Assembly: GCA_003116975.1 (NCBI GenBank)
Contig: BGKB01000051.1
Location: 326,684 to 390,683 of the forward strand
Source: Aurantiochytrium sp. KH105
Lineage: Eukaryota > Sar > Bigyra > Thraustochytrida > Thraustochytriidae
DNA length: 64,000 nucleotides
Reading direction: 5' to 3'
Part shown: piece after piece, positions 41,381 through 62,860 of the stretch
How positions within the stretch are numbered: the stretch's first letter is position 1
Layout of the letters: each line of letters starts with the position of its first letter
The notes under the pieces: model-generated
What the model saw: the letters and a program-made list of their open reading frames with translations, nothing else
Told to the model about the DNA's origin: nothing
Databases searched by the model: none
Made by a program: the position numbers and the translations under genes

Positions 41381-42177
41381 CGTGGCCGCGCGGCGTCGCA
41401 TGCGCCGCGCCGACTCGCAAGCAGGATCTGCTCCGCACTTGCCCTGTGTCGGCCCCTTTTTCGCTGCCAGAGCGTCAACCGAGCGAGATCCTTGATCATC
41501 GAGATCTCCAGCACACACCTTCCAGAGGTGGTGTGTGCTCTTGCAGGGGTCCTCGTGGGGACGCTGGTAGCCGTTGGCTATTCTCGGTGCCTTCCGCCCG
41601 TCCCGAACGAACGTCCTCTGCTCGAGCCAAGCCGAGCAATGAGTCGCGTCCTCCCCAGGCTCGCCCGCGCGATGACAACGATGGAGTCAGCCGTGCTGCA
41701 TGCCGGCCATCCGGCCGGCCGACCGTCCGACCGGCCGACCGACCGACCACGCGCGCAAGCCATGCCAATCGGCACAAGTTGCGTTGATTGCGGGACTCGC
41801 GCCAATCGAAAAGAGGGTGAATGAATGACAGCTCGAGCTCGGAGTGAGTGAGTGAGTGAGGGTGGGCCGGTTTCGCTCTGCAGAGGACACCCGCGCAACG
41901 TCCAGGCGGGGACGCAGGCGTGCAAGCACAGCAAGCACAGCAAGCACTGCAAGCACAGCAAGCACAGCAAGCACAGCAAGCGAGCAGAGCTCAGCTGTAG
42001 CTGCAGACGGCCAGCCAGGTGAATGACCGGCCAGCGGAGTGGGATGCGCTATTTGTGAAGGTTTGCTCAGCTGTAGTCGCGTGCGGGCAAAGCAAGAGCT
42101 GCGGCGACGGCAAAGCTCGAGCCGACGAAGCAGCCAGGCGGGCCAGGGAGCACGCGGGCTTGCGCGGCGAGGCGGAA
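41381..42177. other. Divergent spacer with several simple repeats
   Basis: Lies between the ADPRM start and the large membrane protein. It holds a CCGG/CCGA tract (41705-41746), a GAGT run (about 41841-41860) and ten-base CAAGCACAG-type repeats (41922-41984). The membrane protein frame is open from a GTG at 42019. No further gene. Confidence 0.55.
41922..41984. repeat. 10-bp tandem repeat (GCAAGCACAG)
   Basis: Six copies of a decamer GCAAGCACAG, one with CTG in place of CAG, about 195 bp before the next start codon. Confidence 0.9.
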
Positions 42178-45100
42178 ATGATCACGCTCGTGGACAATGA
42201 ACGCGCGGGCGGCACGTGGCTGCAACTAGGCCAGGATGTCGGCGCCAGCGGTGCCAGCAGCGTACGCTTTCTAGGCAAACTCGGGCTGCACGCCCTCTTT
42301 GTGGCCACCGTGGTGATCCTCGCGCTCGCCTCTGACGGCGCGCAGATCCCCTGGGCCGTCATGTATGGTCCACTTCTGGCCGTGCTCGGGCTCACGCTCA
42401 CGTGGTTTGTCGTGGACCTCGTTTGCAGAGCACCGCACCTCGAGGAACGCGCCCTCTTTACTCTTTCCTTTGCGGTCTTTGTCCTCATCATCGGCACGAC
42501 CTCGGGCGCCATGGCGGCTCTCGTGGCTCGTGGCGTTCGCATCGTAGAATACGACAGCGTACTCGCCGACATTCCGAGCATGGACCTCACCTCGGGATCG
42601 CTCATGCGGCAATGGTCCGGCGCCAAACTCGGCGCCGATGACACGAGCGCCTTTGTTCAACTTGCCGAGGGCGACCCCTTTGCGGTCACGAACACCAACA
42701 TGAAGACCTGGATTGGGCTCAACATTAGTCACGCGGCCATTCAGCCCGTGTACAATGTGTCTCGAGTCAAGGAACGCTGCTTTGCGGAGCGCTCCGATGG
42801 CGTCTCCCGGCTATGCGCCTTGGACGAGGCTCCGGAAAATAAAATTGAGAGCAATGGATCCGCAACGGCCCAGTTCTGCTCCATTGCAGACCTTATTGAC
42901 GCGCCCTTTGAGCAGACGTGCCGATCTGTAGCCGATGCACGCTGTTCGCTCTATGTACGCCCCACGACCTTTTATGATTCAAGCGACGATCGAGCACTTG
43001 CGAATCGAATTGACAGCGGCATTCAAGACCTTGGCGAGGGCGCTCTCTGCTCCAACACGTGCCGCTACAATGGTGACAGAGAATGTGACGACAGTGGACC
43101 GCGCTCCTTGTACAGCGTGTGTTCATTCGGCACAGATTGCCAAGACTGCGGCACGCGAACGTGGCACATGCAAGGTTTTGCCAAGAGCATTTATTTCCCC
43201 ACATGCGGCTACTTTGAGGACTCGGACGCATCCACGGGCATCGAGAGCGGATTTCCTCAGCGGTACACGTCTCCCTGGGCCTATGGTCAGCGGGCTGTAT
43301 GTCAGCAGCCCTGCGCGGCAAGCCAGCTTGCCGCGCTCGAAGAAGCTTGCGATCTCGACTCTTCGACGCGATGTCAAGCCTCGACAAATGACGGAACCGC
43401 ATTTCTCGCCTATGCCACTTATCGGGAGGACGCTGCTGACAATATGACGTGGTGCTGCGACGCAACGACGTCCGAGGAAACCGAGACTGACACCTTTGCG
43501 ATTGTCGAGGCTCTTCGCGTAGAGAAAACGAGAGCCTTGATCTCAGTGCAAGACTGTTTCCAGGCCTGTCTTGTACAGTATTATTACGACCAAGGTGCGT
43601 GCAGCCTCGTTCAATTCGACACCGAGTCCGGGCGTTGCGAGCGCGTTGATCCGCGCGGCACAAGGCTTTGCAAAAGAACCTCTTTGGGCGACCTCGACTG
43701 CAGCGCGTCGCTTGCTCTTGTCCAAGCGCCCAAAGCAAGCAGCACCAGCAGCGCCAGCACTAGCACCAGGAGTGGCAGCGCTCTCGAAAATCAGCTTTCC
43801 TTTCCCGTGGGGGCCCCGCTCTCGGCAGAAGTAGCTCTGAGCACGGCAAACGTAGAGGATCCGTGGAATCGGCTCCAGGTGGCACCTTTGCCAGGCGTTT
43901 GGACGCACGCCAGTGCAACCTGGACAATGCACGTCATGCTGGCGCAAGGTTTTGCCGGGGACACGCCCTCGTCAATCGCATTGAACATGGACATGCAAGT
44001 CGTGCTCGCCCCATTTCTTTGCATCCCTCTAGTGCTTGCACTGCTTGCAATCTGCGTCTGCTGCACGCCAATCAACTGTCTTCCTGATGTTCGAGTCACG
44101 GATGAGGATGTGTGCGCCTGGGATTATGTTTGCTTTAAAGGTCCAGCCTATGTGCACGCGCAAGCCCACAACTTTCGACTGCTGACAATGGCGCTCATCC
44201 TCAGTCTCAGCGCCGTCTACTTGCTCTTTCGTAAACTCGTCTTTGGCCGCGCCGACCCGACTGCGCCCTCGTGGGCCGCCGTCCTCGTGCCCTTTTGGAT
44301 TGTAAGCGCGCTCGTGCTGGCAAGCTTTGCATCTTTGCTTGTCACCGCTCGACTCGTCTTAGCCAGCTCGTGTGGCTCGTATACGCAGCGCGCGCGCCTC
44401 GGCTTGCACAGCAACAGCTACCAGGCTTCGTCTCCACGAGGGCGGTTCTTGCTCTGCGCTTTTTGGATCAGCCTCGTGCTTTTGGTGCCCGCAGTCCTCT
44501 CGCTCATCCTGCTGAGCGTGCGTCTTGAGCAGAACGCACAACTCGAGTCATCGAGCGAGGAACGTTTGCATTTTGTGCTGCGTGTTGACGCCTTTAGCAC
44601 GACAATTCCTTTTCAACTAGGTCTTTTGATCAACATGGCTGGCTTTCTCATGTACAGTCTTACGGCCTTGTGCATTCGACTGTACGAATGGAAAATGACC
44701 CGTCTCGAAGCCCTTGAGCTCAGCGTTCGAGCCAAACTACGTCTCGACCGCGCCAAGCAAATTGCGCATCTCAAGGATCGCTTTTTGGAGCCGCAGAGAA
44801 CAAGTCAAGAGCTTATTGAGATTCTTCAGCTGTTTGTCTTTCGTGGTCGCGACTGCGCCGTCTCGCACGAGGAGGTTCGTAATTTGGGTCACGCCAAGCT
44901 CGCGCTACTCGAAGCATCTGGTCAAAACCTTGCGCAAACGTGGACTCCAGAAGTAGCTCGCGAGTACGGCGAGCTTCTCCGTTTCTTGCTCTCGTCTGCT
45001 TCAGATTGGCCACAGCAGACTTGTGGCGATAGCGCGGACAGAACCTTTAGTCCATCGAAGCGACTTTGCTTGCGCGATCTTGGATTTTCAACCGTCACGG

Positions 45101-45384
45101 GCTGGGCGGCTCTCGTTCTGCGTCCAGCGAGCATTCAGCGACGCATGCTTGCTCATCTCGAGGACGAGGCCGCCGCTGCGACTGAAAATTCGCAAGGATT
45201 CCTCAAATTCCTTTCCACAAAGCGGCGCGTTGCCAATGCGTTTTCTGCTCGCTTGGACGCCAACGAGCAACCTAACGAAGAGCAGCTTTTAGGAATCAGT
45301 TCTGCATCGTCATCAGGGCACAACGATGACGCCGAGGAGGAGAGGGAAGAGGAGCATATCCATGTTCAGCTCGCAGTCGTGTAG
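42178..45384 (+). CDS. Large polytopic membrane protein with cysteine-rich ectodomain
   Basis: 1068 residues from the ATG at 42178; the frame runs back to a GTG at 42019, where CAG/GTGAAT also resembles a splice donor, so an upstream exon is possible. Three hydrophobic helices near the N-terminus (LGLHALFVATVVILALA, then one in VMYGPLLAVLGLTLTWFVV, then FTLSFAVFVLIIGTT) are followed by an about 490-residue Cys-rich loop with several N-glycosylation sites. In it is CSNTCRYNGDRECDDSG followed by CSFGTDCQDCGTR, a Notch-LNR-like pattern frequent in stramenopile surface proteins. About five more helices follow, then a ~240-residue cytosolic tail with no known domain. I do not recognise a family. 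By layout it could be a surface receptor, channel-like protein or adhesion protein; none of these is shown. Confidence 0.75.
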   Translation: MITLVDNERAGGTWLQLGQDVGASGASSVRFLGKLGLHALFVATVVILALASDGAQIPWAVMYGPLLAVLGLTLTWFVVDLVCRAPHLEERALFTLSFAVFVLIIGTTSGAMAALVARGVRIVEYDSVLADIPSMDLTSGSLMRQWSGAKLGADDTSAFVQLAEGDPFAVTNTNMKTWIGLNISHAAIQPVYNVSRVKERCFAERSDGVSRLCALDEAPENKIESNGSATAQFCSIADLIDAPFEQTCRSVADARCSLYVRPTTFYDSSDDRALANRIDSGIQDLGEGALCSNTCRYNGDRECDDSGPRSLYSVCSFGTDCQDCGTRTWHMQGFAKSIYFPTCGYFEDSDASTGIESGFPQRYTSPWAYGQRAVCQQPCAASQLAALEEACDLDSSTRCQASTNDGTAFLAYATYREDAADNMTWCCDATTSEETETDTFAIVEALRVEKTRALISVQDCFQACLVQYYYDQGACSLVQFDTESGRCERVDPRGTRLCKRTSLGDLDCSASLALVQAPKASSTSSASTSTRSGSALENQLSFPVGAPLSAEVALSTANVEDPWNRLQVAPLPGVWTHASATWTMHVMLAQGFAGDTPSSIALNMDMQVVLAPFLCIPLVLALLAICVCCTPINCLPDVRVTDEDVCAWDYVCFKGPAYVHAQAHNFRLLTMALILSLSAVYLLFRKLVFGRADPTAPSWAAVLVPFWIVSALVLASFASLLVTARLVLASSCGSYTQRARLGLHSNSYQASSPRGRFLLCAFWISLVLLVPAVLSLILLSVRLEQNAQLESSSEERLHFVLRVDAFSTTIPFQLGLLINMAGFLMYSLTALCIRLYEWKMTRLEALELSVRAKLRLDRAKQIAHLKDRFLEPQRTSQELIEILQLFVFRGRDCAVSHEEVRNLGHAKLALLEASGQNLAQTWTPEVAREYGELLRFLLSSASDWPQQTCGDSADRTFSPSKRLCLRDLGFSTVTGWAALVLRPASIQRRMLAHLEDEAAAATENSQGFLKFLSTKRRVANAFSARLDANEQPNEEQLLGISSASSSGHNDDAEEEREEEHIHVQLAVV

Positions 45385-46423
45385 ACGATTACCACTTTTT
45401 CCCAAAACTTATGTAATATTGGCATTCCCTTTTCACCATGGATTTTTGTGAAAGTCGTTGTTGTTATTGATCGAGGCTGCGTCTTGCATGCATAAAATCC
45501 AAGCTTGAGCAATATGTTGCTCTTTCCTCGGAGCTATGAGCGTTTTCTCGACACACCCATCATCACGCAGTCAGCCAGCATGCGATGCCACATGCACAAA
45601 TGTATTGATCCACATTAATGAAGCGGACATTCCCAAAGACCTGATGCCAGGCGGGAAGCTGCTATCAGAGAGGGAGAGACATCGGAGGGGCGCGACGCAA
45701 GAACAGGACGTCGCGCGTGCACAACACGCCGGGTGCATTCGGTGTGTATACCCAAAATAACCTCAGGGTAGTCATAGACCTACATAGCAGAAATGGACCA
45801 GGGTCGCGACCTGGGACTGAGCGGAATAGACCTGGCAACGACCAAACTCGATGCCAGAAGCTGGCAGAACCGAAACCCACCATAATATTGATCTACACCA
45901 AAGCTAAATCCGAGCAGCAGCGTGAAAAGCCTACAATTTACTTTCCCCGTTTCGTGCAAGCCACAAAACGAAATTTCTTTTACGTTTATTGAAATCAACT
46001 TCATCTCTCCATTCTTTCTGACCTCTGAGGAATCACTGTCAACAAATATGCAAGTGAACAATGCACGTTCCATCCCAGGCTTATTGTGAGAGGATGATAT
46101 TCGGGTCGCCCATGGCAAACGTAATGGCTGGCGTGAAACTCCCCTTCATTATATAGCGCGGCTAGTTTCCTGCGGAAGTATTTTTTGCAAAAGGAATGAA
46201 GATGGCAATACTTGTATGTGAAGGCCTGTCTGCACCCTTACGCGCGAAGTCTTTCCGAGCGTGCGGGCGAGTCATGCAAGGACTTTTCTGTTGTGGTGCT
46301 CTTTGCGCCACTCTGACGAGAACATCCTTTGAGGATGAGCCCATGAAATGGCGAGACTCAAGCAGGGCAACAGGATGCGACCCATAAAATCGATTCCATT
46401 CTATAAAATCACATTCTCGGCAT
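45385..46423. other. Convergent intergenic region
   Basis: About 1 kb between the 3' ends of the membrane protein and the LRR-kinase-RING gene. AT-richer than the genes. Short open frames on both strands have no recognisable motif. Nothing else is seen. Confidence 0.6.
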
Positions 46424-49400
46424 CTATTGTTCGAACCTAAAATTGTCGCCGACAATATCCGGGGTAAGGAGAGGGCGCAGGCTCTGCTGGACGTGGGCAC
46501 GTACGTCTGCGTCTTCGATCTTTTCCGTCATGTAGCGGCGGAGACGCTGTGCACGAAGCCGAGCCCACGCTTGCTTTACAACAGCAACATCGCTCAAGAA
46601 TGGGCCTTCTTCGCCAGCAGGCTTTGACGCGCATGTTGCAACGTGCCGATGACAAGCGTCTGCATCATCGCCTGTGTCCTGCAGACACCATGCGCAAAAG
46701 TAGCATGGGCAAGCGGCACATTTGAGAGCGCAGCAGCCGTCAAAGTCAGCAAAGACTGTCGAGCAACGCGGGCACGACATGGCGAGGACCTCATCTTGAA
46801 TGTCGCGAATGTGACTTTGCGTCGTCTGGTCCAACTCATGTTCGCGAAGTGCTGCGTCGACGCGATCACGGAACTGACGCTCTTGTTCGGCTGCGGCGTC
46901 TCGCTCAAATTGCGCGCGCACAATGGCGAGTAGAGCTGAAAGATCCCCGTCTGGAACCGCGGATGCAATGGCTCGTCCAGAAACAAGGAGTTCACAGTCG
47001 GGCGCGCCACAGCATACGCTTCCATCTCGTAATACCTTGACGTGCGAGTGAGCCTCAATGGCAGCACGAACCGACTCGCTCAGGCACTCTATACACGCAA
47101 AGTGGCCATCAGCGCAAGAAACGCCTCCACTGACTGGATACACGTCGAGACAAATGACACATGAGGCCTCCTTTATAGGCTCAACTTGAAAGGCTTCGTG
47201 ATGCAAGGCCTCAAGCGCAGTGGGTCGCTGTGTTGGATCTGCAGACTGGAGAGACGAAACGAGTGNGCAGACTGGAGAGACGAAAGGAGGGCTTGAATTG
47301 CGTCAGACACCTCTGAGCCGTCAAAGAGTTCCGCGAGCACCACACCCACAGAAAACATGTCCACGGCAGGCTCGACCTTGTCGACATTTCCGTTGCGGAG
47401 TTCTGGCGCCATGTACTTGATGGTGGCCTGCATCGGCTGCGTCATGGTCACATTGTGCGTCTGCACGCCGTCAAAGTCGCCCAGCACCGGTGACAGACCC
47501 TTTGCGAGAAAGACGTTTTCTGGCTTGACATTGCAGTGCACGAAGCCTCGCGAATGCAGATCGTGGAGGCCAGAAAGGAGGCCAATGGCAATGCGCAGAC
47601 GAATTGCCATGTCTGCGTGCGAATGATCGCGAATCCACGTGGCGAGGTCGCCACCCGGATAAAACGGCATCAGAACGCAGCCCTCACGTGCATCCTGCAT
47701 AAAGGCGCCCTGAATCTGGACAATGTAGGCCGATTGAATCTGGGCAAGTGCCGCAACTTGATGGTAAAAGCGACTGCTCCACGCCTCGCTGGCGAGATGA
47801 AAGGCCTTGAGCACGAGATCGCGGCCATCGGGGCCACGTACTTTTTGCACAGACTTGCCAGGCTTGGACGCAAGCTCCTTGAGAGTGACAAAGTGCTCGC
47901 GACGAGCCGTTGTCCGCCATAAGGTCAGCTTGGACAGCTCCAACGGTGCTCCGCCGTCGCCCAAACCCAGCCGCTTCAGCCACTCCTGATCCCGGAGCAG
48001 CTCAGGGTAGTGCTCTTCTGCATGACGCAACAAGCGAGCTCGCTCCTTGCGCAGCTCGCTGTCGAGTTTGTCAACACTTCCGGTTTGAGCAAGCTCTTGC
48101 TCCAGGTCAGCGATTCGCGCTTGAGCTTCCTCGTCACCTCCTCTGGCATCTTCGCGGGCGTCGTCGAGTTCGAAAGCAAGACGCTTAAGCTTTCTCGTCT
48201 TGTTTCTGAGACTCTTGAGAAGAAGCTCTGCATCTTCGGTGTTTGGCTCAGTGAGTCCAGACGTGAGGCGCGAGAGCAAATGCCCAAGGACCTTTACGCG
48301 CGAGACCACGCTCGAAATCGTACGAGTGTAAAACGAGAACATGCAGGCCAACGCACGTCGCACTTCGTCGAGCGGGGCATCTGCCATGGGATCGCCTTTC
48401 TTCAAGACGTTGAGCTCCGCAATAAAAGCTTGGTGCACGTCCTGAAGTTCCAAGACCAACTCCTGTGATCTTTCGGGATAAGTCAGCGTTTTGAAGAATG
48501 TAGGCTGAATGCCAAGGCGCTTCGTGCTCTCTTCTAGTGCGTTGAGAGCTGCAGTGGTGCGTTCGCGTGCAGCAATCGCATCATGGCGAGCCTCCCACGC
48601 CTTGATGGCCTCCATCATGGTTCGAGTTGCCTCCTGTACTTGTCCAAAGGTCACTAGCTCCGCTGCATCGTCGATATTTTCTGCTTCGCCCAGGATATCC
48701 CGCCAGAGCTTGCGACAAGTGTTGGCCACGTCGTTTGCATCATCTTCCAGCTCCTGAAGCTTGGTTTCTGAAGATATTGCGAGAGTCTCTCGAATACACG
48801 TGAAAAGGTTGCGCCGCACCTGGTTCCGTTCAAGGATCTTTTCTGGGTCTGCCTTGACGGCTTCCTGCAGTGTGGTGAGCGCTTGCTCTTTCTCAGGTAC
48901 AGCTACTTGCTGCGAGTCAAAGTCTGCCACAATGGCACTCGGATTTTCGCGTGAGAGCTGCTCGGCAAAGAAATCGCGCAGCATTGTATGGAGTTCAGCC
49001 TTTTCCTCGCTACGCTTTGCCCGGGCATTGGAAAGCTTCGAGGCAATAATCTTGAGCTTGCTCGTTTGCTCAGGACCTACAAACGCTTGCAGCAACGCAC
49101 GGCGGTCTTGCAAGCTTGCTATCCCCAGTTTCTCAAACTGGGCGGAAGTGAGACTGCGAAACTTTTTCAATGTCCGCATGCCCTGCTCGTAAAGCTTGAC
49201 AACCATCTCTCGCAGTGCGTTGGTTTGTAGCCGCGCTAACGGTAACGAGTGTACGAAAAGAAGGAAGGCGTACAGCGTCAAATGAAATCTGGAAGAAGCA
49301 GCCGCAATGGCCTTCCTGATCCCGAGGGACTCGCTCGAAAGACCTGCGCTGTGCTTGAAAAGAAGCTTGGCTACAATAAGAGCATTGTCCTTATCCGTGC

Positions 49401-52400
49401 CTTTGCAGGCGTAGAACAGCGCTGTCTGACCTAGAGTGTCCCGCGCGTCGATTTGAGTCCCATTGACCACCAACGTTTCTGCCTCCGAGATGTCGCCGTT
49501 CTTGCACACTTGCATAAGAGGCGTCTGGCTCTGTTTGAGCAGAGTTTGATTGCGTTCGAGAGCGGCTTTGAGAGCAGGATTGTCGTAGTCGATGCTGTGA
49601 TTTCAAAATGTCAGAAGTAGGAATTTGATGCGGGTTGTGAGCTCTCTTTGAAACTTACCTGAGCGTTTGTAATGTTTTGTTTTCTGCGAGTGCGTTCGCT
49701 AGCGCCGTAGCGCCCTCGTGGCCGATATTGTTGTTATAAAGACTGCGCTCGTCATAACATGAGACGCCAAGATGAACGAAATCGCGCCCAAGGGTTGCAT
49801 TCCGTCGCACCTCATGCGTGCGTGCGTACGTGAGTTGTGGTCAGCCCTTGTTGCTTTCTTCTTGGGCTTCTCGCCTCACTTTCACTTTGTCGCAATGACT
49901 TACTCTAGCGTCTGCAGCGACTCATTGTTTGCGAGTGCGTTCGCCAGCGCCGTAGCGCCCTCTGCACCGATCTTGTTGTTATAAAGACTGCGCTCGTCAT
50001 AACATGGGACGAAAAGATGAACGAAATCGCGCCAAGGGTTGCATTTCGTCGCATCCCATGTGTGCGTGAGTGCGTGCGTACGTGAGTTTATGGTCAGCTC
50101 TTGTTGCTTTCTTCTTGGGCGTCTGGCCCCACTTGCACTTTCTCGCAATGACTTACTTTAGCGACTGCACCGACTCATTGCTCGCGAGTGCTTTCGCCAG
50201 CGCCTTGGCACCCTCTGCGCCGATTTTGTTGCTATTGAGACTGTGCTCGCCATAACATGAGACGCCAAAATGAACGAAATCGCGCCAAGGATTGCAATCC
50301 GTCGCATCCCATGCGTGAGTGCGTGCGTTTTTAAGTTGTGGTCAGCTCTTGTTGCTTCTTGGGCTTCTGGCCTCACTTTCACTTTCTCGCAATGACTTAC
50401 TCTAGCCTCTGCAGCGACTCATTGTTTGCGAGTGCGTTCGCTAGCGCCGCGGCGCCCTCGTGGCCAATATGGTTGTCATTAAGACTGCGCTCGCCATAAA
50501 TATGCGACGTCAAGATGAACGAAATCGCGTCAAGGGTTGCATTCCGTCGCATCCCATGCGTGAGTGCGTGCGTTTTTAAGTTGTGGTCAGCTCTTGTTGC
50601 TTCTTGGGCTTCTGGCCTCACTTTCACTTTGTCGCAATGACTTACTCTAGCCTCTGCAGCGACTCATTGTTTGCGAGTGCGTTCGCTAGCGCCGCGGCGC
50701 CCTCTGCGCCAATATGGTTGTCATTAAGACTGCGCTCGCCATAAATATGCGACGTCAAGATGAACGAAATCGCGTCAAGGGTTGCATTCCGTCGCATCCC
50801 ATGCGTGTGTGGGTACGTGAGTTGTGGTCAGCTCTTGTTGCTTCTTGGGCTTCTGGCTCCACTTTCACATTGTCGCAATGACTTACTCTAGCCTCTGCAG
50901 CGACTCATTGTTTGCGAGTGCGTTCGCTAGCGCCGTAGCGCCCCTGTCGCCGGTCTCGTTCCACCCAAGACTGCGCTCGTTATAACATGAGACGCCAAGA
51001 TGAACGAAATCGCGCCAAGGGTTGCATTCCGTCGCATCCCATGCGTGTGTGCGTGCGCACGTGAGCTGTGGTCAGCTCTTGTTGCTTTCTTCTTGGGCTT
51101 CTCGCCTCACTTTCACTTTGTCGCAAGGACTTACGATAGCATCTGCAGCGACTCATTGCTCGCGAGTGCGTTCGCCAGCGCCGTAGCGCCCTCTGCGCCA
51201 ATATTGTTGTCCCGAAGACTGCGCTCGTCATAACATGAGACGCCGAGATGAACGGAATTGCGCCAAAGGTTGCATTCCGTCGCATCCCATGCGTGAGTGC
51301 GTGCGTTTTAAAGTTGTGGTCAGCTCTTGTTGCTTCTTGGGCTTCTGGCCCCATTTTCACTGTGTCGCAATGACTTACTCTAGCGTCTGCAGCGACTCAT
51401 TGTTCGCGAGTGCGTTCGCCAGCGCCGTAGCGCCCTCGTCGCCGATAATGTTGTCTCTAAGACTGCGCTCGTCATAACATGGGACGAAAAGATGAACGAA
51501 ATCGCGCCAAGGGTTGCATTTCGTCGCATCCCATGTGTGCGTGAGTGCGTGCGTACGTGAGTTTATGGTCAGCTCTTGTTGCTTTCTTCTTGGGCGTCTG
51601 GCCCCACTTGCACTTTCTCGCAATGACTTACTTTAGCGACTGCACCGACTCATTGCTCGCGAGTGCTTTCGCCAGCGCCTTGGCACCCTCTGCGCCGATT
51701 TTGTTGCTAGTGAGACTGTGCTCGCCATAACATGAGACGCCAAAATGAACGAAATCGCGCCAAGGGTTGCATTTCGTCGCATCCCATGCGTGTGTGCGTA
51801 CGTGAGTTGTGGTCAGCTCTTGTTGCTTTATCCTTGGGTTTCTTTATGGCCCCACTTTCACTTTGTCGCAATGACTTACTATAGCGTGTACAGTGACTCG
51901 TTCTTTACGAGTGCGTTCGCCAGCGCCGTCGCGCCCTCGTGGCCGATATTGTTGTGCTCAAGACTGCGCTCGTCATGACATGAGACGCCAAGATGAACGA
52001 AATGGCGCCAAGGGTTGTATTACGTCGCATTCCATGCGTGCGTGCGTACGTGAGTTGTGGTCAGCTCTTGTTGCTTTCCTCTTGGGCTTCTGGCCCCACT
52101 TTCACTCTGTCGCAATGACTTACCCTAGCGTATGCAGCGACACGTTCTTTACGATTGCGTTTGCCAGCGCGGTGGCGCCCTTGTCACCGATGTTGCTGTT
52201 AAAAATACTGCGCTCGCCATAACATGAGACGCCAAGATGAACGAGATCGCGCCAAAGATTTCATTCCGTCGCATCCCATGCGTGCGTGAATGCGTTAGAT
52301 TTGATCAGCCGTTGTTGTGTCTTTTGTGAGGTCTCACAATTGGTCATTTACGTACCTGATTTCTTTCTCGCCGTTTTCGATCGCCTCAACTGCTTTTTGG

Positions 52401-52435
52401 ATTGCATTCTCGCCTCTTAAACGAAAAAAAAGCAT
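46424..52435 (-). CDS. LRR / ankyrin / degenerate kinase / RING-IBR multidomain protein (13 exons, frame broken by an assembly N)
   Basis: Exon model: 52435-52356 (ATG start); eleven 84-nt LRR exons 52207-52124, 51963-51880, 51715-51632, 51462-51379, 51218-51135, 50970-50887, 50729-50646, 50484-50401, 50240-50157, 49987-49904, 49742-49659; and a long last exon 49594-46424. Every junction is phase 2 with GTAAGT-like donors (GTACGT for the first). Each LRR exon codes one 28-residue ribonuclease-inhibitor-type repeat (LYNNKIGAEGATALANALAN type). The last exon gives an ankyrin-like start (SQTPLMQVCKNGDISEAE), a long coiled coil, a kinase-like domain (VLKAF, HCNVKPEN instead of HRDxKxxN, GDFDG instead of DFG, MAPEL), a RING (CVICLDVY...CADGHFACIEC) and an IBR-like zinc region (SCPRC...CHRHVATC). 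An N at 47266 with a duplicated 19-mer shifts the frame; dropping 26 bases gives about 1382 residues. Likely a pseudokinase-E3 ligase sensor protein (inference). Upstream coding beyond the first ATG is possible. Confidence 0.78.
47241..47285. other. Assembly join: single N inside a short duplication
   Basis: The 19-mer GCAGACTGGAGAGACGAAA occurs at 47241-47259 and again at 47267-47285, with the window's only ambiguous base (47266) between. Removing one copy with its spacer (26 bases) restores a continuous kinase-to-RING frame (ALLSSLQSADPTQRPTALEA), which aligns with SLISSLRPEDSSQRPTALDA in the nearby paralogue. This is most likely a contig-merging artefact. Confidence 0.85.
49595..52207 (-). 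repeat. Tandem array of LRR exon + intron units (11 copies, ~245 bp period)
   Basis: Eleven units, each an 84-nt exon plus an intron of about 157-169 bp (the last intron, 49595-49658, is shorter and different). Exon ends are spaced 241-253 bp apart. The introns are as similar to each other as the exons: each starts GTAAGTCATTGCGA or a variant, contains CCAGAAGCCCAAGAAGCAAC and a GCATGGGATGCGACG block, and ends GAGCGCAG or GAGCACAG. None of the eleven exons carries a stop or frameshift. Confidence 0.9.
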
Positions 52436-54647
52436 CGTTTCGACCTCGTTGCACCTTGTAGCTTCTAACGCGGCCTCCTCACGAAGAGCACAACTTCAAA
52501 TCAATGCTCTGCAGGGACCAGTATACGCTTGCAGCTGATACAACGTCGACACGTCTTTCTCCAATATGACGTCGTGAATCTGGCGGCGAGAGAGAGCACG
52601 TTGTTAAGCGACGAGCGAAAGGAGAGACCGCAGCGGCGCCGCAGCCAGAGAAAGTTGGCGCCACGTGCACGAGGGCAAGGCGGATGCGTTGTCCGTTTAA
52701 CGCGGCTTCTCTACGAGCGTCTTGCGCTTGGTGTCGACGACGCAAGCGCGCAGCAGGCAGACAGTCAGATGTGACGAAGACGGCGTCCGTCCGTCCGGCT
52801 GCTCAGTACGCCGCGCGGGTCGAGAGCAGGCAAGAAAGGCGCGCAGCGAAGTGAGCGCGGAAGGGGGCGCCACACGTACGAACGACGCGTACGAGCGCGC
52901 GCGCGTTTGCCTCGAGCCGAGCCCGCCAACGTGTGATCGATCGCGTTCTGCTCGCATCGCGATCTCGCAAGGATCGACCGGGGAAACTTTCCCTCTCGGG
53001 AAAACAAGGATCCCCGGACCTGTTGCCTCCTGCGTAGACCCAAGTTTCTCCGTAGTCACCGTAAATTCTCCGAAGCACGTGCGGCGTGTCTGCGAAGAAG
53101 CAGGCCAGGCCAGGAGCGCAAGGCAGTCGCGTTCCGAGCAGGGAGGGCTGGCAGGCGCGGCGCTGCGCTGCGCTGCTGGCGCTGACGCGCGCATGGAGTG
53201 TTCCGCTGCTGCTGCGCCACGAAGAGACCTCGCGTCGGCCCGCTGCACTGCGAGCTTTCTTGCCTCGGTGACCGATCGATCGAGCGAGCCGGCGGCCGGG
53301 TTCTCCTTTTTGGGCGCGCACACCCTCTTTCTGGGAATCGAGGCGGCAGTGGCGGGCAGGGACGAGCCGCCGCGGCTACGTGCATTCGAATGCTGCAGTG
53401 CGCGGAGGGAAAGGGGAGAAGGAGGAGAGAAAGGGGGAAGTCCGAAGCTGCGGCACGCGCCGCGAGAGCCGCCTCGAGGATGCTGCTGCTGCTAGGGTCA
53501 GCATCGCGCGCTGCGCCAGAGCGGCCTGGGGGCTGACAGCTGGCTGGCTGGCTGGCTGGGGGCCCGGGGCGCAAGGAGGAGACGCGCTGCCCCTGGTGGC
53601 TGCCGAGACGATGATACCTGGGAGACGAACCGAGTGGGCACGCGGTGGGGGGAGGTAAAGAAAGGTGGTCGTGCAAGGGCAACTTGCGTGGCCGCCAAAG
53701 AGATCGACAGACGAGTGGAGATCTTCATCATCTTCTTATTCTTACTCTCGGCGACGTGTCGCTTGGACGGTGGTTAGTGCCATACGGTGATAATAGAAGA
53801 CGTTTGGCGAGAGACGGGGGCGAGACCAGCTGTGAGTTGGTTGAGCGCTAGCATTTTGTTTCCTCCTTCCATGGGGTAAAAGGCATGACGGTTGCGGCAA
53901 TGATGAGCACGTCTTTTCGAGCAGTGACAAACATTCGCCCTTGATTCTTCTTCTCTTGGGCCAAACAGGCCTGGCCAGACTGCCTCGAGCGCCACGCGTC
54001 TGGCTTTGGCGTCGGTGTCCAACTTGCCGCGCTGCAGCTGCGAGCTCGTCGATGTGGGTGCCGAGATCTACAACAGCAAAGTGTTTTATCCGCGCGCTGC
54101 AAAGTGAATCATTGGTCCGTGCAAATGAACAAACAGTCAGGCGCAATCGGCAAAGGCTTGGCGAGTCTCTCTTGTCTCATCGCCGCCGCCGCCGACGCAG
54201 ATGATGATGCCCGGAATCGCGGAGACGCTAGGGGCGCGCCCAGGCAGCGCGCGGGCCCTGACAGAGGGCGTTGAGGGCCCGATGTGTTCAGGCGGACGCG
54301 CGCTCGTGGCAGGTCTTGCCGCAGCGCCTTGCCGCATGGAGCGGCTTGGAGGTGGATGGATTGAGCCAACGACGATGTGCCCAACGACGAGCGAAGGCGC
54401 GAAGGCGGCGACTGCAGGCGTGGGTGTCGGCGACGTGAGCGAGAGAGCCAGGAGAGAAGCGGGGGCCTGAGAACGGTGAGCTGCAGTGGACACGTGCAAG
54501 TAAGAAAGACCGCCTCGCGCTACCCGAAGATTCGACCTGGTGTGCACTAGCAAGCAAGGCGAAAAAAAGGCTGCAGCAGCGTCTTGGGCCTCGACGAGCA
54601 CTTCTGGTCAGGGTAAGGGCGTTTCAAACATTCTCGCAACATTTACC
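52436..54647. other. Region between the LRR gene and its decayed paralogue
   Basis: About 2.2 kb. The first part upstream of the LRR gene has a short open stretch in frame with its start (reading ALREEAALEATRCNEVET) that may be a missed upstream exon. The rest is GC-rich with a GGCT run near 53540-53562 and no convincing gene on either strand. Confidence 0.5.
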
Positions 54648-56491
54648 AGTCGAACCTAAAGTTTTAGCCGACAACGTCCGGCGTAAGGAGTGGACGTAGC
54701 CTGGCCTGGACGATGGCACGTATGCCTGCATCCTGAATACGATTTGCCATGTACTCACGGAGACGCTATGCTCGAAGTCGAGCCCATGCTTGCTGCACGA
54801 CAGCGAAATCGCTAAAGAATGGATCCTTTTCTCCACCAGGTTTTGGTGCGCATCTCGCCACGTGCTGATGACAAGCCTGTGAGTTATTGCCTGCATCCTG
54901 GAGACACCATGCGCAGAAACGACACGGGCAAACGCCGCATGACAGGGCACAGCAGCCGTTAAAGTCGGCAAAGGCTGTCGAGCAGCGCGGGCACGAAATG
55001 ACGAGGACTGAATTTTGAATTGTGTGAAGGTGATTCTGCGTCGTCGGATCCAGCCCATGTTCACGCAGAGCTGCATCGTGACGAAGCTAGAGCTGGCGCT
55101 CCTGCTCGGCTGCGGCGTCTCGCTCAAGATGCTTGCGCACGATGTTGAGCCAATTCGCAAAGTCTTCTGGGACAGCAGTTGCTATGGCATGTCCTCTGAT
55201 GAGGAGCTCGCAGTCTGACGCGACACAGCGCATGCTGCCACCGCGTAAGAAATTCACGTGAGCATCAGGCTGAGCCGCGGCACGGACTGAGTGGCCCAAG
55301 CACTCTTTGCACGTAAAGTGACCGTCAGCGCAAGAGACGCCCTCATCGGCGGGATAAATGTCAAGGCAAATGGCACACGAGGCCTCCTTCACCGGCTCGA
55401 CCTGAAAGGCCTCGTGATGCAAGGCGTCGAGTGCAGTAGGCCGCTGACTTGAATCTTCAGGCCGCAGAGACGATATTAGTGACTTGGTTGCTTCTGATAT
55501 CTCTGTGTTCTCGAAGAGCTCTGCGAGAACCACGCTCACAGAGAACATGTCCACGGCAGACTCAACTTTGTCAACAACTTCGTCGCGCAGCAGCTCGGGC
55601 GCCATGTATTGCTTGGTCGTTTGCAAAGGCTGCGTCATGGTCACGTCGTGCATCTGGACGCCGTCAAAGTCCCCTAGCACTGGTGGAAGACTTGGCGCGA
55701 GGAAGATATTCTTTGGCTTGATGTCGGCATTGCCACGAAACCTCGCGAGTACAAATTGTGCAAACCGTACAAAAGACCGGTGGCGATGCCCCTGCGCGTC
55801 GCCAAGTCTGCAAACGGGTTGTCTCGGATCCAGGCATCAAGGTCGCCACCCTTGTAAAAGGGCATCAAAATGCAGCCCTGATGCGCATCCTGCATGAAGG
55901 CGCCCTGAATGTGCACAATACAGGCTGATTGTATCTGATCAAGCACTGACGCTTGACGGTAAAAGCGACTGCTCCGCTTTTCGTTGGCGAGATGAAAGGA
56001 TTTGAGCACAAACTCATGGCCATTAGATCGCGTAGAAGTAGGACAAATTTGCCAGAATTGGATGAAAGCTGTGCGACAGTCTCAAAATCTCCACGCGTTG
56101 CGTTTGTCAGCCAGAGACCCAACGTGGACAGCTCGTGGGGTATGCTATTTTGTATGCGCAAGCTCTTGAGCCAATCTTGGTTTTGTATCAATTCAGAAAA
56201 ATGTTCTTCCGCATGTTTCAACACCCGTGCGCGCTCTTTGCGCAGCTCGCTGTCGAGCTTGTAAACACTCCCGATCTGAGCAAGCTCATGCTCGAGGCCA
56301 GGAATCCGAGCTCGAGCTTCTGTATCTCCGTCATTGGCATCCTCGCGGGCGTCGCGAAGATCATGTTCAAGCCGTTCACGCTTCCGCTTCGTTTTGTGCA
56401 TGCTTTGCATGATCTCTTCTACGTCCGTCTTGCACGGCTCACATAGTCCGGGAACGTGCTGAGACAGCACCTCGGTGAGCTCTTTGACGCG
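54648..56491 (-). pseudogene. Decayed paralogue of the kinase-RING/IBR half of the LRR gene
   Basis: Aligns with the last exon of the neighbouring gene from RVKELTEVLSQH (after an ACAACAG acceptor at 56492-56498) to its C-terminal end. Damage: a frame change in the N-lobe near 56030, another at the catalytic loop near 55735 (HCNVKPEN position), an in-frame TAG after AAAEQERQL (about 55085), a TAG where the intact copy has Gln (RLRA-stop-RLREYM, near 54770), and TAA before NFRF at the end (near 54665). The kinase C-lobe and RING stay open between 55680 and 55087 (MLGDFDGVQMHDV, CAICLDIYPADEG, CADGHFTCKEC). The LRR and ankyrin parts are absent; the 1.4-kb repeat array takes their place upstream. 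Several independent breaks argue for a pseudogene rather than one sequencing error. Confidence 0.85.
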
Positions 56492-59400
56492 CTGTTGTAA
56501 AAAAAGAAATGACGAAAAAACAAGAAAATGAGGTGTGGCTTTGTGGCAGGAGATCGAGAGAGCGAGGAATGGCAGAGGCAACGCAAAGGCAGGAATGGCC
56601 AGCGAAATACTGAGGCAAGATCTGAGCGTGGTTGCTTTTGCTGTCTATGACCACGTGCGACAGTGAAGGATGGTTCAACTTGACCAAAAAAGACGAAATC
56701 ATATTGGGAGCGAGTGTTTATGGCAAACGTTTGCTACGTCACGGCCACGAAAAAAGTACGCGCGTGGCAGGACGAAGCGGCGCAGGGTAGGAGCGAGTGC
56801 TGAGGCAAGCGCTGACCTCGCCGGCACAGTCATTGTCTCTGCAGTGGATGCGAAAAGAGGCTCGTTATCGAGAGCTAAAAAAAATGGCAAGCTGGTTGGG
56901 CTTGTTCGCCGCAGATCTCGCTGGGAAGGCTGCAGATCGTTCGCGCAGGCTGTGTACAGGCTTTGACAAGATGTTGCGGCGTCATGTAAGCATTTTGGCA
57001 TGGATCAGAGGCCTTGGCGGTGGTCCATGAGGCGTTTGTTTCACCGAAGAGGAGGTGAGCTCGGGCGAGCGAAGCAGCTACACAAGCTGCAGACCCGACG
57101 AGACGTGCTCGCCACGCTGACTGGCACGAATGAGCGCAAGGCAATATGGAGAGTCGTTTCTAAGATCGCTGACGCAGGTTACAGGATTGTTTGGTGAGGA
57201 AGAGAGCCCAGAGTGCATTGCACGTGCAAAGTCTTGTCTTGGAGATTGGTCTTACGGATAGAAAAAGGTGTCGCATCGTCAGCGAGGGGTCAAATTTGCG
57301 TGCAAGAGCTTGTGTGAGAGCTGGCCTACGGATCAGCGGAATTTCAGCTGCGCTCGAGGTGCAAGAAAGAGAGCAAGGTGAAAGTGAACAATATGAGGCA
57401 GCGCTGGCAACGCGCGCGAGAGCAAGCAAATGTTGCGCGATCCTGGTCGCAGAGCTTGTGGAGGACTGGCAGGGATGTGGTAGATCAGCGAGAGCAGTTT
57501 TGGCAGCGTGCTGCTTGTGTATGTCAAGGCTAGTGTTGCAAACGAGGTGTTGCTTGGCTAAATTGATGTACTTTGGTCCGCTCGGGGCTTGAGAGGGATG
57601 GCGGATGAACTGCAGATGAGCTTGCAAAGGCTGATCCAAGTGTACAGGTTGGATCTATGGCTTTTAATTGGATCGAGCGACTTTTGTTGAAGAGAAAAGC
57701 ATGCTAATGAGTTTGACCTGTTTTTCTGTTTTTTATTTTGAACCGAGCTCTTTGTTGGTTTCGTTGCCTGCAGCAGAATTGGGCAGCGTCATTGGACAGA
57801 ACAGCGCGGGCGATGCGTAGGTTTTGCGCAGCGAAGTAGTGTGGCTTGATATCGTCGGCGTGGGCGGAGAGCTCGTGCAGGCAGCGTTGTTGCGAAAGAT
57901 AAAATAGACGACGCAAAAAAGAAAGAAAATGTGGTGTGGCTTTGTGGCAGGAGATCGAGCAAGCGAGAGATGGCAGAGGCGAAACAAAGACAGCAGTAGA
58001 CAGCGAAGGTCTAGTGCAAGAGCTGAGTGTGGTTGATTTTGCTGTCGGTGAACACGTGCGGCAGTGAGGATAGTTGAAGTTGGCAAAAAAGAGGCGAACA
58101 AATAAGGGGAGAATATGTGAGCGAATGTAGGGCAGGCGATTGCTACGTCAAGACCATGAAAAAGTACGCGCATTGTAGGGCGAGACGGTGCAGAGTAGGA
58201 GCTAGTGCCGAGACAAGCGCTGGGCTCGTCGGCACAGTCATCGTCTTTGCAGTGGATGCGAAAAGCGGCTGCTTGTTGAGGCAAAAAAAAGAAGAAAAGC
58301 TGGCTAGGCTCGTTCGCCGCAGATCTCGCTGAGATGACTGCAAATCGTCTGCGTACGCTATGTGCAGGCTTTGGCAAGATGTTGTGGCATCGTGTCATCA
58401 TTCTTGTATGGATCAAGGGCCCTGACGGTGGTTTTTATGGCGTTTGTTCACTGAAGAGGAGATGGAGAGCGGGTTCGCGACGCAGCCACGCAAGCTGCAG
58501 ACCCGGCGAGACGAGCACGTTGTGCTGATTGACCGTGAATGGGTGCTAGACGGTGTATGTGATCGCTTTTAAGATTGTTGACGAGGGCTGCAGGTGTGCT
58601 TGGTGAGGAAGAGAACCCAGAGTGCGTGGTATGAGCAAAGCAAAGTATCGGCTTGGACAGTGGCTGCACGGGCAAAGAGGGATTACATGGCCAGCAAAGG
58701 GTTTGGTTTGCGCTAGCGAGCCTATTTAAGAGCTGGGCTTGGGATTAGCGGACTTTCAGCTGCGTTCGAGGTGCCAAGAAGGCGAACAAAGTAAAGGTGA
58801 ACAATATGGGGCTTCGTTGGCAACGCACGCGAGAGCAAGCAAATGATGCGCGATCATGGTCGAAGAGATTGGGGAAGGCTGCCAAGCATGTGGCAGATCG
58901 ACGAGAGCGGTTCTGGCAGCGTGCTACTCGTGCAAGTCAAGGCTAGCGTTGCGAACGAGATGTTGCTTGGCTAAGTAGATGTGCTTTGGTCCGCTTGGGG
59001 CTTGAGAGGGATGGCGGATGACCTGCAAATGAGCTTGCCAAGACTGGTCCAAGTCTGTAGCCTGGCTCTATGGTTTTAGTTTGGATCGAGCTCGTATTGT
59101 TGAAGAGAAAAGCATGCTAGTGCGTTTGTCTCCTGCTTTTTTGTTATTAGAACTGAGCTGTTTGTTGGTTTCGCTGCCTGCAGAAGAGATGAGCAGCGTC
59201 GTGAAACAGAGCGATGCGCGCGCTGCGTAGGTCTTGCGCAGAGAGGTGGCGTGGCTAGATTTCGTCGGCAATGGCAAAGAGCTTGTGCAGGCAGCGCTGT
59301 TGTGAAAGAAGAAAATGACGACACAAGAAGAAGAAGAGAATGAGGTGTGGCTTTGTGGCACCAGACGGAGCGAGAGAGCAACGGAAGAGACAAGACAGAG

Positions 59401-62400
59401 GCAGCCGGAGGCAGCGCAGGTCTAGCGCAAGAGCTGAGCGTGGTTGCTTTTGCTGTCGACGACCACGGGTGGCAGTGAAGGGTGGCTAAATTTGAACAAA
59501 AAAGACGAAATAAATAAAGAGAGAATGGGGAAGCGAGTATTCATGGCAGGCGTTTGCGATTGCAAGAACACGAAAAGGTACGCGCATGGCAGGGCGAGAC
59601 GGTGCAGAGTAGGAGCTGGTGCTGAGACAAGCGCTGGGCTCGTCGGCACAGTCATCGTCTCTGCAGTGGATGCGAAAAGAGGCTGCTTATTGAGGCAAAA
59701 ACAAGAAGAGAAGCTGGTCGGGCTTGTCCGCCGCCGCTCTCGATGAAAATGCTGTAGATCGTCCGCGCAGGCTGTGCACAGGCTCTGGTAGGATTTTGTG
59801 GCGTCAAGTAAGCTTTTTCGCATGTATCAGAGACGCTGGCGTTGGTTTTTATGACGTTTTTTTACGAGAAGATGAGCTGTGTACGAGTGAGCGAGGCAGC
59901 CACGCAAGCTGCAGACGTGACGAGGCGTGCTCGACGAGCTGACTGGCATGAATGAGCGCCGGACATTATATGCGATCGTTTACAAAAAGTTTGACGCATG
60001 TTGCAGGTGTAATTGTCAAGAAAGAAAGCCAAGAGTGCGCGATTCTGCAAAGTATCGGCTTGAAGACTGACTGCACGGATAGAAAAAGGCGCCGCATCGT
60101 CAACAAATGGTCAATCTTGCGTGTAAGAGCTTGTGTGAGAGCTAGGCTGCGGATCAGAGAAATACCAGCTGCCTTCGAGGTGCAAGAAAGAGAGCAAAGT
60201 AAAGGTGAATAATATGGGGCAGCGTTGGCAACGCGCGCCAGAGCAAGCAAATGCAGTGCGATCATGGTTGCAGAGCTTGGAGAAGGCTGGCAAGCATGTG
60301 GCAGAAGCACGAGAGCAGTTTTGGCAGTGTGCTGCTTGTGTAAGTCAAGGCTAGCGTTGCGAGTGAGGTGTTGCTTGGCTAGCTCGGTGCGCTTTGGTCC
60401 GCTTGGGGCTTGAAAGGGATGGCGGATGGAGTGCAAATGAGCTTGCAAAGGCTGATCCAAGTGTATAGTTTGGCTCTATGGTTTTTGTTTGAATCGAGCG
60501 AGTGTTGTTGGAGAGAAAAGCATGGTAGTGCGGTTGTCTCTTGTTTTCTTGTTATTTGAGCGGAGCTGTTTGTTGGTTTCGCTGCCTGCAGAAGAGATGA
60601 GCAGCGTCATAAGACAGAACGACGCGCGCGATGCATAGATCTTGCGCAGGGAAGTTGCGTGGCTCGATTTTGTTAGTATGGGCGGAGAGCTCGTGCAGGC
60701 AGCGCTGTTGTGAAAGAAAGATCGACACTACTAAAAGCAGAAAATGAGGCTGGCTTTGTGGCAGGAGATCGAGCAAGCGAGAGATGGCAGAGGCGAAAAA
60801 AAGGCCGCCGGAGGCAGCGCAGGTCTAGCATAAGAGCTGAGCGCGATTCTTTTGCTGTCGGCAACCACGTGCGGCAGTGAAGGATGGTTAAAGTCAACAA
60901 AAAAAAGGCGAACAAATAAGGAGAGAAAATGGGAGCGAGTGTAGATGGCAAGCTTTGGCTGCGGCACGAGTGAGCAAAAGGTACGCGCATGACAGGTTGA
61001 GATGGTGCAAGGTAGGAGCTGGAGCTGAGGCAAGTGCTGAGCTCGTCGTCACAGTCATCGTCTCTGCAGTAGATGCGAAAAGCTGCCTTGTCGAGAGCCA
61101 ACTGTTGAGGAAATGAACTGTAAGATGGATTCTGTTTTAACGCTGATTGGCTACGAATGATTCGGGTCTGCTCGTGACGGGACCGCTTTGGCTCGGCGCC
61201 AGGTCCGAGACTTGGATAAGTGATGTGCAGAGAAGCTGGTGAGGAGCACGGGACTTTGTCACACTTTTCGGCAAGGAGATATTCACTGCCGTGACTTTGT
61301 AGTCTGTCCTCACCAAGTACACTGACCGCTGCAAGGGGTTTAGATGGGGCTTTTTTTATGGGCGAAAGGTTGAAGTCATCTTGTCCATGCCGTATCAGCC
61401 ATGGTGGCGTCATTGTCTTATTTCGATAGCCAACAAAGAAGGCAAGCTGGGTGGGCTTGCTCGTCGCAGAACTCGATGCAAAGGCTGCAAATCGTCCGCG
61501 TACGCTGTGAGTAGGCTCGCGTAAGATGTTGTGGCGTCATGCGTGCGATTTTGCATGGATCAAGGGTTGAGTGGTGGTCTGTGAGGCGTTTGTGCGCGAG
61601 AAGAAAGATATGTATGGGCTGTTGATGATGGTACACAAGCTGCAGACCCGGCGAGATGAGCTCGCTGAGCTGATTAGCATGAATGGGTGTTGGTGAATAT
61701 ATTTGTTCGTTTGCAAGATGATTGACGCATGTTGCAGGTGTCGTCGGCGAGGAAGAGAGCCTAACGTGCATTGTAGTGCAGAGTGTTGGCTTGAAGACTG
61801 GTCTCACGGATAGAAAACGTGCCGCATCGTCAGCGAATGGTCAAATTTGCGTGCGCAAGCCTGCTTGGGAGATAGGCTTCGAGTCATCAGGAATTGTGCT
61901 GCGCTCGAGGTGCAAGGAGGCGAGCAAGGTAAAAGTGAACAATATGGGGGCAGCGTCGGCAACGCACGCGAGAGCAGACAAATGCAGCGCGATCATGGCC
62001 ACAGAGCCTGGGGAGGCTGGCAGGCATGTGACAGATCCGCGAGAGTAGTTTTATCAGCGTGCTGCTTGTGCAAGTCAAGGCAAGCGTTGCGAACGAGGTG
62101 TTGCTTGGCTAGCTTGGTGTGCTTTGTCCTGCTCGGGGCTTGAAAGGGATGGCGGATGATCTGCAAATGAGCTTGCAAAGGTTGATCCAAGTGTATAGGC
62201 TGACTCCATGGCTTTTGTTTTGATCGAGCGATTGTTGTTGCAGAGAAAAGCATGCTAGTGCGTTTGTCTCCTGCTTTTTTGTTATTAGAGCTGAGCTCTT
62301 TGTTGGTTCGCTGCTTGCAGACGAGGTGAGCAGCGTCGTGAGACAAAGCGAGGCGCGCGTTGCGTAGGTCTTGCGCAGATAGGTGGCGTGGCAAGATTTC

Positions 62401-62860
62401 GTCGGCGTCGGCGGTGAGCTCGTGCAGGCAGCGCTGTTGTGAAAGAAAGAACGACACAGATACAAGAAGGATATGAGGTGTGGCTTTGTGGCAGGAGATC
62501 GAGCAAGCGAGAGATGGCAGAGGCGAAACAAAGGAAGCCAGAGGCAGCGTAGGTCAAATGCAAGAGCTGAGCGTGGTTGCTTTCGCTGTCGACGACCACT
62601 TGCGGCAGTGAAGGATGGCTAGAGTTGATCAAAATGACGCGAGCTAAAAAGAGAGAAAATGTAGATGGCAAGCTTTTGACTGCTGCGCGAGTGAGCAAAA
62701 GGTATGCGCATGGCAGAGCGAGATGGTGCCAAGGTAGGAGCTGGGTGTGAGGCAAGTGCTGAGCTCGTCGGCACAGTCACTGTCTCTGCAGTGGATGCGG
62801 AAAGCTGCCTTGCTGAGAGCCAAGAAAGAAGGCAGGCTGGCGGGGCTTGCGAACGGCAAA
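56492..62860. repeat. Tandem array of five ~1.4-kb units
   Basis: The marker TGGCTTTGTGGCA (variants) recurs at 56536, 57937, 59348, 60751 and 62481, so spacings are 1401, 1411, 1403 and 1730; the last is longer because of a 332-bp insertion. Whole units align: for example CACAGTCATCGTCTCTGCAGTGGATGCG-type and AGCATGCTAGTGCGTTTGTC-type blocks occur in each (given here only as short signatures). Divergence is moderate with small indels. On the minus strand each unit ends with a T-rich stretch and an ACAACAG acceptor-like site before a partly open segment reading RCLHEL. No unit contains a long open frame with a recognised domain. Confidence 0.85.
61103..61434. mobile_element. 332-bp insertion with 7-bp target-site-like duplication
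   Basis: Present in only one of the five 1.4-kb units. It is bounded by AGCCAAC at 61096-61102 and 61428-61434; the other units read through this point (for example GAGAGCCAAGAAAGAAGG near 62817). Removing it brings the unit to 1398 bp, in line with its neighbours. Its ends (TGTTGAGG and TTTCGAT) are not inverted repeats, there is no A-tail and no coding capacity. A small non-autonomous element is the best reading; the family is unknown. Confidence 0.6.

Follow-up and report, generated by a model that had tools for sequence, protein, structure and literature searches.

Tandem arrays in which exons of one fixed length each encode a single leucine-rich repeat (LRR) have been described in brown algae and in Tetrahymena. 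In the available portions of the source, LRR-ROCO genes of the brown algae Ectocarpus and Saccharina possess 72-bp, phase 2 exons of one LRR each, arranged in shuffled arrays with positive selection at four sites of the concave face, and are proposed to be immune receptors (PMC11378527). The accessible text on Tetrahymena describes 90-bp, phase 2 tandem exons, again of one LRR each, every one of the ten species except two having more than 1,000 LRR genes, and with young genes that are also subtelomeric (PMC6564038). For the vertebrate NLR genes, LRR exons of 171 bp holding two LRRs are given for NLRP3 in the part of the source at hand (PMC6642158). Amongst thraustochytrids, Thraustochytrium aureum is stated, in the text available, to have relatively few LRR proteins in comparison with other species (PMC8917795).

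The window considered here, i.e. the whole 64,000-nt stretch of Aurantiochytrium sp. KH105 DNA that was analysed, ends where contig C51 ends, and harbours a gene with an array of this kind. An earlier reading of its letters (the sequence-only reading) had described the array as modular, receptor-like and able to change its number of repeats. Viewed alongside its relatives, the gene probably belongs (probability roughly 0.62) to an expanded family, often located at contig ends, of intracellular LRR-kinase-RBR-like sensors that would have been diversified by selection together with the exchange of units.

The array and the gene that carries it

On the minus strand, a scan of the sequence finds exactly eleven stop-free exons of 84 nt, each preceded by CAG and followed by GTAAGT, from 52207 down to 49659 (Table 1). 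The codon at every border is split 2+1 (phase 2), the introns measure 157–169 nt, and Tandem Repeats Finder reports the array with a period of 244, 10.6 copies and a score of 3372, the runner-up among 42 rows scoring 280. Each exon translates to one 28-residue RI-type LRR (Pfam LRR_6, E 6e-58) of the form LxxNxIGxEGAxALANALxxNxSLxxLx, in which the final residue is the intron-split codon; the 28–29-residue LxxLxLxxNxIG repeats that characterise the RI-type (LRR_6) class are therefore present. Solved LRR structures matching the array include ribonuclease inhibitor, NOD2-type (5irm) and NLRP chains. The eleven exons proposed by the sequence-only reading are thereby borne out, and are not a product of chance, because units of this kind turn up again at each of the 18 further loci that were parsed. 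The exon junctions of the gene are predicted, on the basis of its sequence and of one protein model of the same plan (P0001) from the thraustochytrid Hondaea fermentalgiana. No further LRR unit occurs elsewhere in the window, and Rfam returns no match at 49000–53000 (E up to 1) and none window-wide at gathering scores.

Table 1. Features of the gene and its surroundings (window positions)
Feature	Position	Strand	Remarks
Putative first coding exon	52356..52435	-	80 nt; ATG; phase 2 end before GTACGT; N-terminus like Hondaea P0001 'AVEAIENG..EI'
LRR exon 1	52124..52207	-	84 nt; phase 2
LRR exon 2	51880..51963	-	84 nt
LRR exon 3	51632..51715	-	84 nt; near-identical to exon 9
LRR exon 4	51379..51462	-	84 nt
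LRR exon 5	51135..51218	-	84 nt
LRR exon 6	50887..50970	-	84 nt
LRR exon 7	50646..50729	-	84 nt; 96 % identity with exon 8
LRR exon 8	50401..50484	-	84 nt; 96 % identity with exon 7
LRR exon 9	50157..50240	-	84 nt; near-identical to exon 3
LRR exon 10	49904..49987	-	84 nt
LRR exon 11	49659..49742	-	84 nt; last-repeat type (ENKTLQTL)
Long 3′ exon: ankyrin-like repeats, helical region, protein kinase domain	47173..49594	-	Pfam Ank_2 2e-6, Pkinase 1.2e-24
RING/RBR-like C-terminal region	46424..47302	-	Frame differs from upstream exon in the assembly
Second, incomplete family fragment	55087..56644	-	Kinase match in Pfam; visual inspection suggests coiled-coil and RING-like pieces; without LRR exons
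Tandem repeat of ~1.41 kb	56496..62634	+	Copies at ~92 % on at least nine other contigs; consistent with a subtelomeric repeat

The frame of the long exon stops at 47173. Close by, at 47266, a single N falls within the C-terminal coding region, around the point where the frame switches from the kinase part to the RING-like part; in many paralogs, the C-terminal part is an open frame of ~1050 aa. Because of this shift near the N, and because the second haplotype of the locus, on contig C172, is without ~850 bp of the C-terminal exon, the window locus may be decaying. An AlphaFold model of the 3′ exon, built from seven sequences, has a mean pLDDT of 51.

In the long exon, Pfam identifies only ankyrin and kinase families, with no NB-ARC, NACHT or TIR domain seen there, and no ROC-COR domain was detected in Pfam scans of the window gene and its Hondaea relatives. 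By these scans, the gene is neither a ROCO, for want of ROC-COR, nor an NLR, for want of an NB-ARC or NACHT domain linking the sensor part to the effector part. Genome-wide, NB-ARC gives two matches only, at 27 and 25 bits. A TIR domain is confined to some family members, namely Hondaea P0003 and the loci on C343 and C229, at both of which loci the TIR and kinase-part matches report an equal open frame length (1211 and 1215 aa, respectively). Across the genome as a whole, at least 150 TIR_2 matches exceed the curated cut-off (150 of the 258 candidates that were scored, with the two haplotypes counted separately), and many of them lie in open reading frames of 800–1500 aa (e.g. C8:194982-195323 and C16:579190-579504), which is a very large TIR repertoire for a protist genome with just two NB-ARC matches.

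The kinase domain occurs as two subtypes amongst 20 loci, 11 displaying the motif HCD and 8 HCN, with the motif not found in one; GDFDG is present in 18 of the 20. The window copy is of the HCN type and so possesses a kinase domain lacking the HRD-type catalytic Asp of an active kinase. Since 8 of 20 loci have HCN rather than HCD, some members might serve as sensors or decoys and not as enzymes. In the RING/RBR-like region, a Cys/His-rich pattern is conserved in 16 loci, the comparison covering 16 of the 18 usable RING-like regions. Its matches to known proteins are weak, with RNF216 at E 0.006 (RING1), RNF4 at 0.008 for the second Cys cluster (RNF4 being a RING, not an RBR, protein), HOIL-1 type at 0.34 and RNF31 at 0.78, and with Pfam below cut-offs.

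Members of the family, their unit number and position

Within the genome (76 Mb in 367 contigs), the array DNA finds 49 matches including the window, the others at 75–88 % identity, and the C-terminal protein finds at least 66, again including the window, the others at 45–94 %; the latter is a lower bound because 59 of 564 candidates were scored, and one locus may give several rows. Against 5.8 billion proteins (7993 candidates scored), the C-terminus has 21 matches, of which seven are strong and all from Hondaea fermentalgiana, the next standing at 8.7e-10. Hondaea proteins P0001–P0006, annotated as 'Protein kinase, putative', resemble the window gene in C-terminal architecture at 50–90 % identity; LRR arrays are present in P0001 and P0002, and P0003 ends in TIR. 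The highest identity between a Hondaea protein and any of the family loci compared is 92 % (to P0001), and the two organisms are probably different species. Among the matches listed from titles and abstracts on thraustochytrids, Hondaea and labyrinthulomycetes, in a search that took in little of the subscription journals, the exon-array family is undescribed.

Nineteen loci (the window and 18 others), which form part of the 49 array and 66 C-terminal matches and to which the pairs C51/C172 and C44/C122 each contribute both partners, were parsed into units. They contain 17, 16, 15, 15, 14, 13, 12, 11, 11, 11, 10, 10, 9, 9, 9, 8, 8, 5 and 4 units, or 207 in total, of which 203 were read as 84 nt long, three as 87 nt and one as 78 nt, all of them multiples of 3. 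Unit 10 of locus L010 (donor GTCGCT) was probably cut short in parsing from a longer in-frame exon, which leaves 202 clear 84-nt units. The acceptor is CAG in 199 of 207 units and the donor GTAAGT in 199 of 207, and no unit contains a stop. Exact-length, one-repeat, phase 2 tandem exons of the ROCO and Tetrahymena style are thus a property of these loci at large, at 84 as against 72 or 90.

Both haplotypes seem to be contained in the assembly, because only one other full copy, at 97 % and on C172, exists of a 4.4-kb stretch next to the window gene. Identity between C51 and C172 is 96–99 % at 42000–46250, 91–94 % at 46250–47000 and 95–98 % at 48500–49250, then 79–90 % across the array (49250–52500) and 92–96 % at 52500–53750. 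In the pair C44/C122, a 1.2-kb inner flank exists in just these two full copies, at 94 %. Allelism is based on the 3′ flank for the former pair and on the inner flank for the latter; upstream similarity was rejected as proof, because the 30 upstream pairs listed are already 88.7–96 % alike. Flank queries from C151 and C44 matched many repeats.

The modularity and changeable unit number put forward by the sequence-only reading are upheld by the spread of 4–17 units over the 19 loci, by repeated blocks within arrays (units 1–2 of L015 against 6–7; units 1–3 of L010, which resemble 6–8) and by the first gene of C44/C122, with 17 against 9 units between homologous haplotypes. The second gene of that pair has six clear units and one partial versus 11. 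A change in number is not seen at the window gene itself, as C51 and C172 have 11 units each, but of different contents (exon identity 0.63–0.90, intron 0.87–0.95).

With regard to position, 20 of 26 family places, these being the ones on contigs of known length, are no more than 25 kb away from a contig end (16 % expected), on 18 contigs that measure 100 kb or more. The family is probably subtelomeric, although assembly breaks at repeats would also produce such a bias. No run of the two types of telomere repeat tried was found in the family loci examined. In the ~1.41-kb repeat stretch beside the window gene, GC skew is strong (0.21–0.29) and no gene was identified. Separately, an element of ~450 bp at window positions 45600–46053 has ~40 dispersed copies in the genome, mostly 79–87 % identical, and no Rfam match.

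Probable exchange of units and divergence of the expected concave face

Introns had been held to be duplicated along with exons, and this is confirmed by exons 3 and 9 of the window gene, which differ at 1 of 84 nt, and by their introns, which differ at 0 of 169. Exons and introns also part company. Identical exons have introns 10–11 sites apart in units 1 and 6 of L010, as well as in the first units of L017 and L018, and identical introns have exons 10–11 sites apart in the third unit of L050 versus its fourth, fifth and sixth. L050 (C293:1-3500) is a young-looking array, in which three units are the same or one nucleotide apart, 6 of 7 introns are equal in length with 0–3 differences, and exon differences reach 12 sites, most of them within the first 35 nt.

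Rate statistics were drawn from 186 of the 207 units, unit 10 of L010 among them; those omitted were 19 last units, the one of 78 nt and another that has a long intron. Linkage between polymorphic sites of a unit falls from an r2 of 0.077 (1–3 bp) to 0.034 (4–10 bp), 0.018 (11–25 bp) and 0.010 (26–50 bp), against 0.0054 after permutation, and is near background by ~50 bp; no tree entered the calculation of linkage or pN/pS, and r2 can be depressed by homoplasy where codons are saturated. For introns alone, r2 is 0.030 (1–3 bp), 0.014 (26–50 bp) and 0.005 (91–140 bp). A test for templated tracts gave 32 of 61 distinct runs, the permuted mean being 24.4 and the permuted maximum 32.

The sequence-only reading had proposed comparing substitution in exons and introns, and introns prove to be more alike than exons: between genes, the mean distance is 0.201 for exons and 0.108 for introns, with the exon value higher in 96 % of 4000 pairs sampled from 16277 (bootstraps were over genes, with up to 1500 pairs each). 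Divergence is concentrated in a few codons. The split codon has a pN of 0.47, and residues 2, 3, 5 and 8 have 0.71, 0.62, 0.38 and 0.44, respectively; residues 12, 20 and 26 are intermediate (0.24–0.29), and conserved L, N, I, G and A positions range from 0.016 to 0.12. From established LRR structure, the split codon and residues 2, 3 and 5 are expected on the concave face. Together, these four display a pN of 0.540 (0.516–0.562, bootstrap over genes), which is 2.5 times the pS of the other codons (0.221; 0.197–0.239) and 4.5 times the divergence of introns (0.120; 0.112–0.129), and they give rise to 156 different four-residue patches among the 186 units. When all 28 codons are counted, pN (0.186) is lower than pS (0.245). 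In the attached exon, pN/pS across 16 paralogs is 1.0 for the first 30 codons, 0.49 for the ankyrin part, 0.43 for the helical part and 0.22 for the kinase, which is under purifying selection. The description of the array as receptor-like gains support because divergence is concentrated at the expected concave-face residues and the array is fused to kinase and RING/RBR-like regions.

How strong positive selection appears depends on the yardstick, i.e. the pS of other codons or that of the same codons. By the latter, the four concave codons have a pS of 0.444 and a pooled pN/pS of 1.22 (1.06–1.40), and the values differ amongst codons. It is conceivable, if improbable, that concave codons owe their diversity to a locally raised rate of mutation or import (targeted hypervariability, or conversion that copies in old alleles), each change being under little positive selection. 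Three of the five variable codons do have an elevated same-codon pS, namely residues 2, 5 and 8 (0.70, 0.49 and 0.49 versus 0.22 elsewhere), where pN does not exceed pS (ratios of 1.0, 0.8 and 0.9); pairs with the same residue use different codons in 48 % of cases at residue 2 and 34 % at residue 5, against 17 % at other codons; and units with identical introns already differ at hypervariable sites. The synonymous variety at residues 2 and 5 is suggestive of a local rise in mutation, or of old alleles that were imported. Weighing against this explanation, pN is well above same-codon pS at the split codon (ratio ~2.9; 1.5–10) and residue 3 (~2.1; 1.7–2.8), codon differences between same-residue pairs at the split codon, residue 3 and residue 8 (7 %, 16 % and 7.5 %) are not above those of other codons, and codons replaced many times inflate the pS that is counted. 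Selection is clear at the split codon and residue 3, because of these ratios and the absence of elevated codon differences there, and raised mutation, old alleles or repeated codon replacement could contribute at the others. That the excess of exon over intron divergence stems from homogenised or functional introns, rather than from fast exons, is very unlikely. Framework pS of the exons, at 0.22, is ~1.8 times intron divergence, and near-identical introns do stand beside differing exons; in the 11 genes for which both parts were available, however, intron divergence (0.126) is close to pS in the kinase (0.121) and helical (0.112) regions, with concave pN at 0.559. Introns therefore evolve at about the synonymous rate of the gene body, and are not unusually conserved.

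Interpretation and comparison with known systems

Under the favoured reading of a diversified family of intracellular sensors, unequal crossing-over and short gene conversion would add, remove and reshuffle units, with near-identical introns providing the homology for exchange among units, haplotypes and loci. Exchange between introns would keep the reading frame, because the exons are multiples of 3 and of a single phase. Selection would then retain novel concave binding faces, the kinase and RING-like parts being held constant, and a ligand on the concave face might switch kinase and/or ubiquitin ligase output. The targets, we infer, would most likely be viruses, bacteria or other cells. A more far-reaching proposal, possible and held tentatively, is that contig-end LRR cassettes recombine among loci, perhaps with raised mutation of binding codons, into a combinatorial intracellular immune repertoire, in which each haplotype (perhaps each clone) would have private binding faces wired to kinase, ubiquitin-ligase or TIR output.

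Recognition need not mean immunity. Self/non-self recognition (allorecognition), adhesion or mating recognition is a less likely role, yet divergent binding sites and divergent haplotypes suit any recognition system, in which rare faces would be equally favoured; it is the kinase, RING-like and sometimes TIR modules that suggest intracellular signalling instead. Little likelihood attaches to the arrays being for the most part subtelomeric repeats without function, whose similarity would be maintained by concerted evolution and whose regularity would be a by-product of tandem duplication. Such an account draws on their contig-end location, on stops in some C-terminal matches, on the loss in C172 and on the window's change of frame near the N, but is at odds with the complete lack of stops in the 207 units, the low kinase pN/pS and the excess of concave pN over intron divergence. 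Scarcely likely at all is an assembly artefact, whereby collapsed repeats would give wrong unit numbers and contents. Several arrays do reach a contig end, and the window gene has its one N; nevertheless, Hondaea models share the plan, and the units of the window would not easily be collapsed because most of their exon pairs are 10–30 % different.

Read as a family of intracellular sensors, these genes would add another protist lineage with shuffled, phase 2, one-repeat LRR exons, here tied to one signalling module, so that receptor and output, residing in one gene, can be studied together. Thraustochytrids include culturable laboratory organisms, and their culture could let recognition diversity in a unicellular eukaryote be tested across clones and strains.

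Of the described systems, as far as the available text of each extends, the ROCO genes of brown algae share with this family a stramenopile host, one LRR per exon, phase 2 borders and shuffled arrays, and the variable concave-face residues found here agree with their selected sites (PMC11378527). They differ in having 72-bp exons and a ROC-COR GTPase, whilst the present genes join 84-nt exons, each encoding a 28-residue RI-type LRR, to an ankyrin-helical-kinase-RBR-like(-TIR) module. Tetrahymena is a ciliate with exons of 90 bp, whereas here there are 84-nt exons, tens of loci and one shared signalling module (PMC6564038). With vertebrate NLRs, the family has in common RI-type LRRs, frame-preserving exon modules and a border at a fixed place of the beta-sheet, as the accessible part of the source describes (PMC6642158), but the long exon of the window gene is without their NB-ARC or NACHT domain. 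The one-repeat-per-exon array that the sequence-only reading singled out in a protist is consequently real but, given the Tetrahymena and brown algal exons, not new for protists, and exact-length phase 2 LRR exons may have arisen repeatedly as an evolvable format. Whilst that format was already known, the lineage, the 84-nt exon and the kinase-RBR-like(-TIR) module are new here.
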